From the NCBI GenBank assembly GCA_003139355.1, contig PLIM01000107.1, positions 1 through 34,131 on the forward strand: 34,131 nucleotides of DNA, given 5' to 3'. This document shows, piece after piece, positions 1 to 11,691 of the stretch (position 1 is the first letter of the stretch; each line of letters starts with the position of its first letter). The notes beneath the pieces are model-generated. The model saw only the letters and a program-made list of their open reading frames with translations, did no database searches and was not told the origin of the DNA. The position numbers and the translations under genes were made by a program. The DNA is from Acidimicrobiaceae bacterium. GTDB taxonomy: Bacteria; Actinomycetota; Acidimicrobiia; Acidimicrobiales; Bog-793.

Positions 1-3
1 CAC

Positions 4-1161
4 TTGCGGAACCTGTTCGAGCTCGTCGTCCGGTGCGTGCACGACGGCGACGTCGAGCCGATCATCGCGTCGTCCCACCAACTCGCGGTGGACCGCTTCG
101 CGGCCGGCTTCGACATTGGCGAGGTCCAGGGAGAATTCAACGTCCTGGAGGAGGTGCTCTGGCGCCAGGTGGCCGACACCCTCGCCGGCGACCAGCGGAT
201 CGAGGCACTGGAGCTTCTGAACGCCATCCTCGGGGCGGGGAGAGATGCGCTGGCCCGAACCTACGTGGCGCTTGCCAGCGGTGCGGACAGTCCGCTTCGC
301 GAGCATCCAGCGGTGCCGCAAGAAGGTGGCGAGGCGGGCACTGGGGACGGCTCGGTCCCGGCCGGGGCCATTGGCTTCGCCGGTGGCGCCCTCCGGACCG
401 AAGTCCTCGGAAGGGTCGGCGTCATCACCCTCGGCGACGAGCATCGGCGCAACGCCCTCAGTGCCGAGCTGGCCAACGGTATCGTCGCCGCCCTGGAGAG
501 CTTGCGAGCCCAGGACGTGCGTGCCGTCGTGCTTCGCGCCGCCGAGGGAATGCGCGTGTGGTCCGCGGGCCGTGACATCACCGAACTTCCCCGGGGTCGG
601 CGCGATCCGCTCGCCTACAACGACCCCCTCGAGGAACTGATCCGCTCCATTCGCGTCTGCCCGGTCCCGATCATCGCCATGGTGCACGGCTCGGTGTGGG
701 GTGGGGCGTTCGACCTGGTACTGAGCTGTGACATGGTCACGGCCGACGAGACGGCGATGTTCGCCATCACTCCCGCGAACCTGGGGCTCCCCTACAACAC
801 CACCGGGCTGCTCCACTTCCTCGGGCGGCTGCCAATCAATCTCATCAAGGAGATGTTCTTCGCCGCCGCGCCCGTCGACGCCCACAAGGCCAAGGAATGG
901 CTCGTCGTGAACCACCTGGTGGATGCGGCCGAGCTCGAGGCATTCACCCTCGATCTGGCCGCGACGATGGCCTCGAAGTCGCCCTTGGCCATATCGGTGA
1001 TCAAGGAACAGCTCCGTGTCCTCAACGACTATCAGCCCATCGCGGCGCAGGTGTACGAACGAATCCAGGGGCTGCGACGGGAGGCTTACGACAGCAGCGA
1101 CTACCTCGAGGGTCTCAACGCCTTCGCCGAGAAACGCCAGCCTGTCTTCCGGGGCACCTGA
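4..1161 (+). CDS. scpB: RsbRD-like N-terminal domain fused to methylmalonyl-CoA decarboxylase-type crotonase
   Basis: The C-terminal 260 or so residues (about 125-385) read like E. coli ScpB/YgfG, which decarboxylates methylmalonyl-CoA to propionyl-CoA. Close matches include the segments around GRDPLAYNDPLEE, VHGSVWGGAFDL, ANLGLPYN (holding the equivalent of the catalytic Tyr140) and the ending EGLNAFAEKR. The ScpB motif SAGHD appears here as SAGRD, so the oxyanion-hole residue His66 is Arg; its backbone amide could still serve. The first 95 or so residues are an all-helical segment resembling the RsbRD N-terminal sensor domain (AVDRFAAGFDIGEVQGEFNVL), joined by a Gly/Pro-rich linker. ScpB is normally only about 260 residues long, so the extra domain is real added sequence. 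The frame is open to the window edge, and the TTG at position 4 may not be the true start. The decarboxylase assignment is strong; the domain fusion is seen, its regulatory meaning inferred. Confidence 0.82.
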   Translation: MRNLFELVVRCVHDGDVEPIIASSHQLAVDRFAAGFDIGEVQGEFNVLEEVLWRQVADTLAGDQRIEALELLNAILGAGRDALARTYVALASGADSPLREHPAVPQEGGEAGTGDGSVPAGAIGFAGGALRTEVLGRVGVITLGDEHRRNALSAELANGIVAALESLRAQDVRAVVLRAAEGMRVWSAGRDITELPRGRRDPLAYNDPLEELIRSIRVCPVPIIAMVHGSVWGGAFDLVLSCDMVTADETAMFAITPANLGLPYNTTGLLHFLGRLPINLIKEMFFAAAPVDAHKAKEWLVVNHLVDAAELEAFTLDLAATMASKSPLAISVIKEQLRVLNDYQPIAAQVYERIQGLRREAYDSSDYLEGLNAFAEKRQPVFRGT

Positions 1162-1249: not shown

Positions 1250-1432
1250 TCAGCGCCTCAGGGCATTCTCGATGAGCTGGACGGTCTCCTTCGGATCCGG
1301 AACTTCGACGATCAGTCTCCGATACTTTTCATGCTCGAGCGCGACGACGACCGCGTTGGTGCCGTCGTGCACATCCCAGAAGATGCGCTCTCCCTCTTGA
1401 CGGAACGTCCCCGCTGTCAGCACGCCAGGCAT
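1250..1432 (-). CDS. small conserved hypothetical protein (60 aa)
   Basis: This short reading frame has the look of a genuine small protein. It has an MPGVLTAGTF start, a WDVHDG segment followed by two predicted beta strands (NAVVVALEHEKY, RRLIVEVPD) and a closing amphipathic helix (ETVQLIENALRR). I recall similar short actinobacterial proteins with a FWDVHD motif, but no function is known to me. It lies convergent to the decarboxylase gene, 88 bases away. No clear Shine-Dalgarno sequence precedes the ATG. The alternative is a chance frame, but the alternating hydrophobic pattern and codon use argue for coding. Confidence 0.6.
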   Translation of the reverse strand: MPGVLTAGTFRQEGERIFWDVHDGTNAVVVALEHEKYRRLIVEVPDPKETVQLIENALRR

Positions 1433-7567: not shown

Positions 7568-9817
7568 TCAGGATAGTGATGAGGAATGGTCGGCAAGACG
7601 AATGCGCACGTCGGCCGCCACGGCCCCCTTCTCGAGGACAAACACCGGGTTGAGGTCCATCTCGGCGATCTCCGGCAGGTCATCGACAAGTGCAGAGACC
7701 CGGTGAAGCACTTGGCGCAACGCGTCGACGTCGAGAGCGGGCGCCCCCCGATAGCCGGTCAGCAGCCGGTACGACTTCAGCGACTGCAGCATGTCCTCGA
7801 TGTCGTCATCGGTGAGCGGTGCGATACGGACAGCGACGTCCCCCAGCACCTCGACGAGCTTGCCACCCAGACCGACCATCACGAGCGACCCGAGCAGGGG
7901 GTCGTGGTTGACACCCACGATCATCTCCTGCCCCGATTCGACTTGCTCCTGCACGAGGAGCTCGCTGGCCGCCGCGTCGATCCCGGCCGATTCCAGGTCG
8001 GCGCGAATCGTCCGCACCGCATCCGCGGCTGCAGCGGGTGTCGTCACCCCGAGCCGGACGCCGCCGACATCGCTCTTGTGGATAGCGGCAGCGACCTTGA
8101 CGACCACCGTGCACCCGAGCTCGACCTGGGCCGCCTCGGCCTCGTCCGGGGTGCGTACGTACGTGGCGCGGGCCACCGCGATGCCATACGCGGCGAGCAG
8201 AGCCTGGGCGTCGACCGCCGCCAGCCAGCCATCGCTCGCGCGGCTGACGGCGGCGGCCACGAGCCGGCCGACCCGGTGGGCGTCGACGTCGGGTCGGAGC
8301 AGCCTGCCCGCCGGACGATCCCGTCGGCCTTCCCATGCGACGCTGCGTCCGAGGGCGCGTGCCGCGTTCTCCGGGAATGCGAACGACGGGATTGCTGCCT
8401 CGCGGAGCGCCCACGGCGGGCCCTCCCGGTTCATGAACACCGTGACCAGCGGCACGTCCCTGCTGAGCTCAACACGTGAGGCGATGAGCTCGTCGGCCAC
8501 GTCCGAGGAGCGAGTGAGCAGGGGTGTGTTGAACATGACGATCAGCGCGTCGATCTCCGATGCAGCCCCGAGGATGCGGACCGCCTGGCCGTACTGCTGT
8601 GCGGTGGCGCTGGCGATCATGTCGACAGGGTTGGACACGCTCGCCTCCGGCGGGAGCAAGGATCGCAGACGCGCCGCGGTGGGCTCGGTGAGCTCGGGCA
8701 CGACGAGCCCGTTGGTCTCGCAGGCGTCTGCGGCGAGAATGCCCGGGCCGCCCCCGTTGGTCAGAATGGCCACTCGATGTCCTCGGAACCGCCGCTGCGA
8801 GCTCAACATTGTGGCGAGGTCGAGCATCTCCTCGATGGATTCGGCACGGATGACGCCCGCCTGGTGGAGCAGGGCGTCCACTGCCACCTCGCCGCCGGAG
8901 AGCGCTGCAGTGTGCGACGCCGCCGCTCGGCAGCCGGCTTGCGTCCGGCCCGCCTTCACCGCCACGATGGGGACCCGCCTGCCGACCCATCGGGCGATCC
9001 GGATGAACCACCGCGGGTCTTGGATCTCCTCCAGGTAGAGCAGGATCAGGTCGGTGGCGGGATCTTGGCCCCAGTACAGGAGCAGGTCGTTGCTGGTGAC
9101 ATCGGTACTGTTGCCCACCGACACGAACCCGCCGATCCCGAGGCCGCGAACCTCCGCCGCCTCCAGCACGGCGAGCCCAATTGCGCCTGACTGGCTGAGC
9201 AGGGACGTCCTCCCTGGCGGGGGGACAGCCCGGCTGAAGGTCGCGTTGAACCGTGCGTCGGCGGTACCGCTGAGTATCCCCGTGCAGTTCGGGCCAACGA
9301 GCCTCACGCCGCCCGCGACAGCTTCCTGCACGAGACTGGCCTGGAGGGCAGCCCCGTCTGCGCCCGTCTCCGCGAACCCGGCCGAGATGACACACACCGC
9401 TTTGACGCCGAGAGCACCGGCTTGGGCGACCACTCCGGGAACGGCGGGGGCCGGCACGCAGACGATGACGAGATCGGGGACGACTGGGCAAGAGGCCAGA
9501 TCCGGATAGGCGGCGATACCCTGCACCGTCGGATGTTTCTTGTTCACGGGCAGCACGACCCCGCCAAAGTGGCTTTCGACCAGGTTGCCGAAGAGCAAGC
9601 CCGCGATCGTGTTCGGATCAGCGCTGGCCCCGACCACGGCGATCGCGTGAGGGCACAAGAACGAGTCCAGAGCGGCCTGCGCCGCGCTGGAGCGGTCCCG
9701 CAGCGCGGCGTCGAGACACCGGTCGGTCTCGGCGTCGGCACCCTCAAGGGTGTGGATCTCGACACGGCGACTGATGCGCAGGACTTCCTCCGATCCCTCG
9801 GCGATTCTCTCGCTCAT
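7568..9817 (-). CDS. fused NDP-forming acyl-CoA synthetase (acetate-CoA ligase, ADP-forming type)
   Basis: The protein (about 749 residues from MSERIAEG) joins the alpha and beta parts of NDP-forming acyl-CoA synthetases. These interconvert acyl-CoA, ADP and phosphate with free acid, CoA and ATP. An N-terminal CoA-binding Rossmann domain starts at CPHAIAVVGASADP. The succinyl-CoA-synthetase-like ligase domain has RLVGPNCTGI and LLSQSGAIG, and the phosphohistidine region reads AASHTAALSGG. An ATP-grasp domain follows (TYVRTPDEAEAAQ, VVVKVAAAIHKSDVGGVRLG, LVQEQVESGQEMIVGV), ending MDLNPVFVLEKGAVAADVRI. The start at 9817 has GGGATCGGGAGC before it; an in-frame ATG at 9931 would add 38 poorly ordered residues. 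It lies divergent to the 2-oxoacid oxidoreductase genes, which could supply its acyl-CoA. Substrate range cannot be read from sequence. Confidence 0.9.
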   Translation of the reverse strand: MSERIAEGSEEVLRISRRVEIHTLEGADAETDRCLDAALRDRSSAAQAALDSFLCPHAIAVVGASADPNTIAGLLFGNLVESHFGGVVLPVNKKHPTVQGIAAYPDLASCPVVPDLVIVCVPAPAVPGVVAQAGALGVKAVCVISAGFAETGADGAALQASLVQEAVAGGVRLVGPNCTGILSGTADARFNATFSRAVPPPGRTSLLSQSGAIGLAVLEAAEVRGLGIGGFVSVGNSTDVTSNDLLLYWGQDPATDLILLYLEEIQDPRWFIRIARWVGRRVPIVAVKAGRTQAGCRAAASHTAALSGGEVAVDALLHQAGVIRAESIEEMLDLATMLSSQRRFRGHRVAILTNGGGPGILAADACETNGLVVPELTEPTAARLRSLLPPEASVSNPVDMIASATAQQYGQAVRILGAASEIDALIVMFNTPLLTRSSDVADELIASRVELSRDVPLVTVFMNREGPPWALREAAIPSFAFPENAARALGRSVAWEGRRDRPAGRLLRPDVDAHRVGRLVAAAVSRASDGWLAAVDAQALLAAYGIAVARATYVRTPDEAEAAQVELGCTVVVKVAAAIHKSDVGGVRLGVTTPAAAADAVRTIRADLESAGIDAAASELLVQEQVESGQEMIVGVNHDPLLGSLVMVGLGGKLVEVLGDVAVRIAPLTDDDIEDMLQSLKSYRLLTGYRGAPALDVDALRQVLHRVSALVDDLPEIAEMDLNPVFVLEKGAVAADVRIRLADHSSSLS

Positions 9818-10293
9818 GCTCCCGATCCCCTGTGCAGGCCCTCTACCCGTCCAGTCTCCTGTAGTTGCCAGCGGGGTTGTAGGGTCGAAGGTCACTCGGA
9901 CACTCCACCCCGGGTCCCGGTCAAGCCTCATGCTGGCGGTGTCGGGCGGTGGCAGATCGGGGCCGACAGCCGAACCGACCTGCGAGTGCGCAGGCTCGTT
10001 CTCGCGTGGCCGGAGATCCTGGACCGTCGAAAGAGTCTTTCGGGCCTAGCCGGGCCGAGCGCACGGGTCGAAGATGGAACAGGTGAAAGCGTCTTGTCCG
10101 GTTCTGGCCATGCGAGCAGCACCTTGCACGATGTCCAGGACCCGCTCTCACCCTGCTGGCGGGCGCAGCACGGTTGCGCCCGGTTCGAGCTGCGCCGTGC
10201 CCACGAAACTGTGGGAGCGTCCTCTGGCAAGTACAGAGCGGGTGCCGGAAGCATCTGCGTGGCACGATGCCAGCCCCTGCAGGAGGTGGCGCC
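9818..10293. other. 476-base divergent control region
   Basis: This spacer separates the minus-strand acyl-CoA synthetase gene from the plus-strand 2-oxoacid oxidoreductase operon, so both promoters should lie here. I see no clear sigma-70 pair, no operator palindrome of note and no small gene with family likeness. AGGAGGTG at 10281-10288 is the ribosome binding site of the oxidoreductase alpha gene. Confidence 0.45.
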
Positions 10294-11691
10294 ATGACCA
10301 GAGTGGTCGAACGACCCAAGCCCTTCGTCGTACCGGAGTACTGCAAGGGGTGTGGGCGCTGCATCAGATCGTGCTCTAAGGGCTGCATCGCGATCGGTAC
10401 CGAGATCAACCCGGAGACGGGGCTGATCCCGATTGTTCTCGACCTGACGCAGTGCAACGGCTGTGACCTCTGCATCGACGCCTGCCCGGAGCCCTACGGT
10501 CTCCGACCGCAAGGCGATGAGGCGGCTTTCGAGTTGATGGACCCCAAGATGCTTCTGGGCCCGCGGCCCTTCGACGTACCGCAGCCGGAGCCCCGGCCCG
10601 ACACCACGGTCAGTTTGCCGGAGCGGGAGCCGCTCATCGTCAAGGGGACGTACGCAGCCGCGGTAGGCGCGATCCTTGCCGGTTGCCGCCACGTCTTCGG
10701 CTACCCGATAACCCCATCGACCGAGGGCGCCGAGATGATGGCGAAGGTGCTACCCGAGCTCGACGGCGTCTTCGTCCAGGCCGTCAGCGAGATTGCGACG
10801 GTCAACATGATGTACGGCGCCGGCGGTGCCGGGAAGCGTTGCATGACTTTCACCAGCTCACCGGGCTTCAGCCTGATGCTGGAGGGGATCTCGTACATGG
10901 TCGGGGCAGAGGTTCCAGCGGTGTTCGTGAACCTCATGCGCGGCGGGCCAGGGCTGGGTAGCATCGGGCCCGAGCAGGCGGACATCAAGCTGGTCTGCCG
11001 CGGCCTCGGCCACGGGAACACCCACGCCATCGCGCTCGCCCCGGCGACGCCGCAGGAGATGCTGGACATCGCGATGGTCTCATTCGAGCTCGCCTTCAAG
11101 TACCGAAACCCGGTCGTGATCCTCGGGGACGGTTATCTCGGCCAGATAACCGGGAAGGTGCGGCTGCCGCGCCAGATGGTGGCGCCGGGGATTCCCGAGT
11201 GGGCGGTGTTCGGCGACCGCTCGCATCGGGGCAACCTGATCTGCTCGGTCAACCTCTCAGAGGTGGAGCTCGAGCAGCACAATATCCGCCTGAACGAGAA
11301 GTACGCGCGCATGATCGCCGAGGAGCAGCGGGCCGACCTCTTCCGGTGCGACGACGCCGACATCCTCCTCGTGGCCTGCAACACGCCATCGCAAATGGCC
11401 AAGGGCGCCATCAAGGAGCTGCGCGACAAGGGCCTGAAGGTCGGCCTCTTCCGCCCCATCACTCTCTGGCCCTTCCCGATCGAGGCCCTCCTCACCGTGC
11501 TCGACCGGGTGAAACGCCTGGTCGTTGTGGAGGCGAGCAGCGGCCAGCTGGAGGACGAGCTGCGGCTGGCACTGAGTCACGCGGATGTCCACATGCCACC
11601 GCCGATGAGCCACGTCCGTCGCATGGGTGGGATCCTCCCGTCGCAGGGCGAGATCATCGAGCACGTGCTGAGCCTGGAGGAGGTGCGCTGA
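10294..11691 (+). CDS. 2-oxoacid:ferredoxin oxidoreductase, ferredoxin-alpha fusion subunit
   Basis: Residues 1-75 are a two-cluster ferredoxin domain. It has CxxCxxCxxxC at Cys17, 20, 23, 27 and a second set at Cys54, 57, 60, 64 followed by Pro. The remainder is the alpha subunit of KorA/VorB type, with GTYAAAVGAILAGC, the FGYPITPSTEGAEMMAK motif, ITGKVRLPRQ and a C-terminal domain starting near DADILLVACNTPSQMAKGAI. The complex oxidatively decarboxylates 2-oxoacids to acyl-CoA, reducing ferredoxin. In many organisms the ferredoxin-like delta subunit is separate; here it is fused to the alpha N-terminus. The ATG at 10294 is chosen for its AGGAGGTG site; the frame upstream is not family-like. 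Its TGA overlaps the ATG of the next gene (TGATG), so translation is coupled. Whether the substrate is 2-oxoglutarate, pyruvate or a branched-chain 2-oxoacid is not certain. Confidence 0.9.
   Translation: MTRVVERPKPFVVPEYCKGCGRCIRSCSKGCIAIGTEINPETGLIPIVLDLTQCNGCDLCIDACPEPYGLRPQGDEAAFELMDPKMLLGPRPFDVPQPEPRPDTTVSLPEREPLIVKGTYAAAVGAILAGCRHVFGYPITPSTEGAEMMAKVLPELDGVFVQAVSEIATVNMMYGAGGAGKRCMTFTSSPGFSLMLEGISYMVGAEVPAVFVNLMRGGPGLGSIGPEQADIKLVCRGLGHGNTHAIALAPATPQEMLDIAMVSFELAFKYRNPVVILGDGYLGQITGKVRLPRQMVAPGIPEWAVFGDRSHRGNLICSVNLSEVELEQHNIRLNEKYARMIAEEQRADLFRCDDADILLVACNTPSQMAKGAIKELRDKGLKVGLFRPITLWPFPIEALLTVLDRVKRLVVVEASSGQLEDELRLALSHADVHMPPPMSHVRRMGGILPSQGEIIEHVLSLEEVR

Follow-up and report, generated by a model that had tools for sequence, protein, structure and literature searches.

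The gene at the 5' edge of the 34,131-nucleotide stretch analyzed here (the window) appears to join a stress-sensor-like domain to a methylmalonyl-CoA decarboxylase. This raises the questions of whether the fusion is real, what its N-terminal domain is, and what such a domain could do for an enzyme of acyl-CoA metabolism.

Gene boundaries and domain architecture

An open reading frame of 386 codons (frame +1) extends from base 1 of the window through the stop codon at 1159-1161. Base 1 is the contig edge (G000:C115:1), and the window copy of the gene is truncated at its 5' end. A TTG at base 4 had been taken as the start in the preliminary description, which also allowed that the true start might lie before the window. 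The latter proved correct. Complete orthologues from Acidimicrobiaceae of the same genus (L005/L039, 425 aa; L006/L041, 422 aa), as well as an orthologue with a complete N terminus and a cut 3' end (L007/L040), begin with an ATG behind ACGGAGGTCC, 39 codons upstream of the window's first codon. In the complete orthologues, this ATG is preceded by the ribosome site GGAGGT. The orthologues are 85 to 88% identical to the window copy, and the fusion architecture is conserved across four genomes, all from a single genus of peatland actinobacteria, providing the longer homologues that had been sought in relatives. The features of the window copy are as follows.

1..279, plus strand: RsbR-N/RsbRD_N-like globin domain, residues 40-132 of the complete protein, with the first 39 codons outside the window (orthologues L039, L041, and L040; fold model; 3ZTA match; subthreshold RsbRD_N)
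94..96, plus strand: invariant Arg, R71 of the complete protein (invariant in 47 rows; opposite DosC His98 in a weak, ungapped hhalign alignment)
280..387, plus strand: interdomain linker, 36 codons (pLDDT of about 30-47 in the orthologue model; dN/dS, 0.44-1.0)
388..1161, plus strand: ScpB-type methylmalonyl-CoA decarboxylase of crotonase fold, with stop codon (NF008506, 373.7 bits; PDB 6n92/1ef8, E 2e-74)
571..573, plus strand: Arg replacing E. coli ScpB His66 (SAGHD to SAGRD), window residue 191 (crotonase alignment)
793..795, plus strand: Tyr of the LGxPYN motif, retained from ScpB (crotonase alignment)

Between orthologues, dN/dS equals 0.11 to 0.28 for the N-terminal domain, 0.44 to 1.0 for the linker, and 0 to 0.17 for the crotonase, ratios that indicate purifying selection on both domains. 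The linker described earlier is indeed present. It measures 33 to 36 aa, diverges between orthologues, and is predicted to be disordered (pLDDT of about 30-47 in an orthologue model). Owing to a shallow alignment, the crotonase half of the full-length model is of poor quality, and the model is therefore uninformative on contacts between the domains. Viral contigs, searched for crotonase relatives to deepen the alignment, yielded none, so the model stayed poor in that half.

It is highly improbable that the fusion reflects an assembly artifact or that the crotonase is translated from a start of its own. Every genome involved is a metagenome assembly, and the contig edge cuts the window copy. 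However, separate assemblies agree in both the fusion and its flanking genes, and the occurrence of the fusion in four genomes, together with the low dN/dS of the N-terminal domain, argues against chance. Selection on both domains likewise speaks against an internal start, and the orthologues share no start codon plus ribosome site at the crotonase boundary; codon 170 is TTG in two genomes only. Both explanations were rejected on the basis of the longer orthologues, the shared flanking genes, and the selection data. Neither of the outcomes that, according to the preliminary description, would have refuted its reading was observed. The gene thus encodes a single polypeptide of about 425 aa, consisting of a globin-like domain, a flexible linker, and a ScpB-type decarboxylase, and this architecture is real.

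The catalytic domain

The C-terminal part had been described as a full ScpB-type crotonase, which is well supported. Window positions 388-1158 match NF008506 (methylmalonyl-CoA decarboxylase, equivalog) with 373.7 bits versus a curated cutoff of 257 bits, covering profile positions 7-260 of 261, and among solved structures, an orthologue hits the E. coli enzyme (PDB 6n92/1ef8) with an E value of 2e-74. The crotonase is 47.8% identical to E. coli ScpB and 48.6% identical to the Yersinia plasmid ScpB, and the motifs SVWGGAF and LGxPYN (LGLPYN) are retained in the fusions. Judged by its sequence, this half is by family a ScpB-type methylmalonyl-CoA decarboxylase. No other NF008506 protein scored over the cutoff among 396 genomes of the phylum, a result of little weight, since controls including E. 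coli also stayed under the cutoff there.

The preliminary description pointed out an Arg in place of the oxyanion-hole His. This Arg is found in all four fusion orthologues, opposite the E. coli ScpB residue within SAGHD that we take to be His66 and that presumably contributes to the oxyanion hole via its backbone NH. In related crotonases, the residue here is Phe, Met, Tyr, or Ala. Because the position varies among crotonases and the backbone NH contributes, the substitution is no sign of lost activity; its interpretation as a mark of lost activity was rejected as weak, and it is not evidence of altered chemistry.

Fold and family of the N-terminal domain

The fused N-terminal domain comprises residues 1-132. 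Its AlphaFold model consists of six helices (mean pLDDT, 91). Among solved structures, the model is closest to 3ZTA, an entry from work on the stressosome that we take to be the N-terminal domain of Moorella RsbR, with an rmsd of 1.8 Å over 123 aligned residues and a Z score of 16.8, where helical models may reach Z 13 through arrangement alone. The match was credited because it extends over almost the entire domain and is consistent with a weak sequence signal. It is followed by phycobiliproteins, pXO2-61, and haem globin sensors.

The sequence signal comes from RsbRD_N (PF14361), the best Pfam family of the complete fused domains, at 18.5 and 19.5 bits versus a gathering cutoff of 24.3 bits. 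A Pfam scan of the truncated N-terminal part in the window gave no match because the first 39 codons are absent. The earlier assignment to RsbRD is thus partly supported, by predicted fold, best-ranking family, and conserved architecture, but falls short of the Pfam threshold, and of the two HMM searches proposed, that for the crotonase scored decisively and that for PF14361 did not. When the N-domain profile was searched against PDB sequences, no match was significant (pXO2-61 at E 0.73). The Pfam scan detected no STAS domain behind the N-terminal domain; only crotonase families follow. On the whole, the model supports a globin-like fold of the RsbR-N/RsbRD_N type.

In the family alignment (47 rows), no His is invariant. 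The invariant Arg71 aligns with DosC His98, the proximal haem ligand, in an ungapped and statistically weak hhalign alignment. His65 is common to all four fusions and mostly missing from stand-alone proteins. The lack of an invariant His and the position of Arg71 suggest that the domain is probably haem free; haem binding, for which the shared His65 leaves some room, is unlikely.

Stand-alone relatives and origin of the fusion

A scan of public genomes revealed 59 loci with relatives of the N-terminal domain, which according to the record titles span at least eight phyla (Bacteroidota, Ignavibacteriota, Gemmatimonadota, Acidobacteriota, Planctomycetota, Calditrichota, Chlorobiota, KSB1, and Actinomycetota). 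Outside the genus, nearly all read as stand-alone proteins of approximately 150 aa, and L095 and L097 are apparently broken by sequence gaps or a frameshift; fusion to an enzyme was seen in this genus only. RsbRD_N is matched at E ≤ 0.1 by 30 of the 47 aligned family members (best, 2e-4) and HisK_N by six, and none of the NCBIfam models fits. The stand-alone proteins (matches L042-L096) form an unnamed family whose core, EVQTAFNVLEE, is invariant and whose C terminus carries an LF.G tail; the family lies under every Pfam cutoff. Comparison of their gene neighborhoods across phyla showed no consistent neighbors. The present case thus brings out a widespread family with a shared core and tail that goes below the Pfam and NCBIfam cutoffs used here.

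The N-domain tree unites the four fusions in a single clade (100/100) whose stem is 1.34 changes per site long; the placement of this clade among actinobacterial stand-alone proteins is weakly supported. The fused copies lack the conserved C-terminal tail (L....LF.G) and are changed at Thr83, Ala84, and Tyr32 (alignment column), which are invariant in the stand-alone proteins. This suggests that the crotonase replaced the conserved tail and that the domain diverged afterwards. Stand-alone paralogues, 42 to 45% identical, are retained in the same genomes as the fusion. A 149-aa paralogue of the genus lies at L003:1561-2010 (minus strand), L042:5001-5447, and L053:291-737. In L003, an endonuclease/exonuclease-like gene and fabD lie downstream of it on the same strand; in L042 and L053, a fabH-like gene is nearby.

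Gene surroundings and propionate genes

An SDR oxidoreductase gene directly follows the fusion in three genomes (G001, G002, and G003), and in the two longer loci, the fusion has ABC transporter genes of aminoethylphosphonate- and polyamine-like type on either side. In the window, the region behind the fusion is eroded: the SDR gene is absent, little of the binding-protein gene is left, and positions 1268-1452 and 1456-1592 match L041 7243-7425 and 9512-9648 with 74 and 80% identity. Positions 1250-1640 are remnants of the transporter region, the first of which contains a 60-aa ORF (1250-1432, minus strand). The rest of the window's genome, which is 85% complete, yielded no close copy of the SDR gene.

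Methylmalonyl-CoA mutase is encoded in three of the four fusion genomes and methylmalonyl-CoA epimerase in all four, with a carboxyltransferase within a few kilobases of the epimerase on the same contig in three. The fusion gene is not adjacent to mutase, epimerase, or carboxylase genes. Its neighbors are the SDR and ABC transporter genes rather than propionate genes, and the true substrate of the enzyme may therefore differ from methylmalonyl-CoA. Elsewhere in the window, two genes in head-to-head arrangement occupy positions 7568-11691: one, on the minus strand, encodes a 787-aa protein resembling ADP-forming acyl-CoA ligases, and the other is a VorB-like gene of the 2-oxoacid:ferredoxin oxidoreductase alpha type with a ferredoxin-type N terminus.

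Proposed function and alternatives

Most likely, we infer, the globin-like domain regulates or localizes the decarboxylase. A link between propionyl-CoA metabolism and a signal or partner, as proposed in the preliminary description, is plausible. The globin domain would dimerize as related sensor domains do, and binding of a small ligand or a partner would alter how active the decarboxylase is or how it assembles. (S)-Methylmalonyl-CoA is the product of propionyl-CoA carboxylase. Enzymes of the ScpB class are reported to act on this same compound (PMC5512728), so that an uncontrolled decarboxylase could undo the carboxylation and waste ATP in a futile cycle with the carboxylase. As the genus encodes a carboxyltransferase beside the epimerase, plus methylmalonyl-CoA mutase, there would be reason to keep the decarboxylase under control. 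That a probably haem-free globin domain controls a ScpB-type decarboxylase on the same polypeptide via a ligand or partner has, in our estimate, slightly less than an even chance. The narrower version, in which ligand binding by a haem-free globin sensor switches methylmalonyl-CoA decarboxylation on or off in cis, is put forward more tentatively. If true, a stress-sensor module would control acyl-CoA metabolism allosterically, and not via transcription or second messengers.

Plain tethering is a serious rival, although on balance somewhat unlikely. The N-terminal domain would then be an assembly module only, pairing the decarboxylase with, for example, the stand-alone paralogue or the SDR protein, and would sense nothing. 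Retention of the paralogues, the SDR gene directly behind the fusion, and the long flexible linker are all consistent with such a role, whereas the changes at Thr83, Ala84, and Tyr32 argue against simple pairing with the paralogue. A reversal of roles is improbable: the crotonase half would bind acyl-CoA as a sensor or act on another substrate, with the globin half as output, and methylmalonyl-CoA decarboxylation would not be its job. The strong NF008506 equivalog score, the 48% identity to ScpB, and the retained LGxPYN and SVWGGAF motifs weigh against it, even if the Arg at the His66 position in every fusion and the SDR and transporter genes adjoining the gene in place of propionate genes would fit.

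Comparison with known systems

The fusion is a new, genus-restricted combination of known parts. Its catalytic half resembles E. coli ScpB/YgfG (PDB 1EF8, 6N92) in crotonase fold, full-length alignment, 48% identity, and key motifs. In contrast, the E. coli enzyme has 261 aa without an N-terminal domain, and has His66 where the fusion has Arg. Yersinia scpB adjoins mutase, meaB, and CoA transferase genes, whereas the fusion gene adjoins SDR and transporter genes.

For the N-terminal half, the RsbR N-terminal non-haem globin (3ZTA; PF14361) is the best structural match and the best, albeit weak, Pfam family. It differs in sequence (10% identity, below the Pfam cutoff) and in what follows, namely, a STAS domain in RsbR and a decarboxylase in the fusion. 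pXO2-61 and pXO1-118 (3PMC, 3PMD) share the fold (Z 15.6 for 3PMC) and, like the stand-alone relatives, are single-domain proteins; however, they are Bacillus proteins with about 12% identity and no enzyme fusion. MabR (Rv2242) of Mycobacterium tuberculosis likewise combines a globin-like N-terminal domain with acyl metabolism in an actinobacterium. Its N-terminal domain, called a non-haem globin sensor, has phycobiliproteins, RsbR, and pXO1-118 as structural neighbors, similar to the fused domain, and MabR of mycobacteria regulates the fabD cluster (PMC11617747). Unlike the fusion, MabR is not an enzyme but a transcription factor of the PucR type that carries GGDEF-like and HTH domains. Globin-coupled sensors such as E. 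coli DosC (4ZVB; fold match, TM 0.70) also place a globin-type sensor before an enzyme, but that enzyme is a diguanylate cyclase, and DosC binds haem through His98, with which the invariant Arg of the N-terminal domain is weakly aligned. The signals of most RsbR-type globin domains are unknown, as has been stated for Gram-positive stressosomes (PMC4976288). Fusion to an enzyme gives a direct biochemical readout, the decarboxylase rate, for finding the ligand of this globin class.
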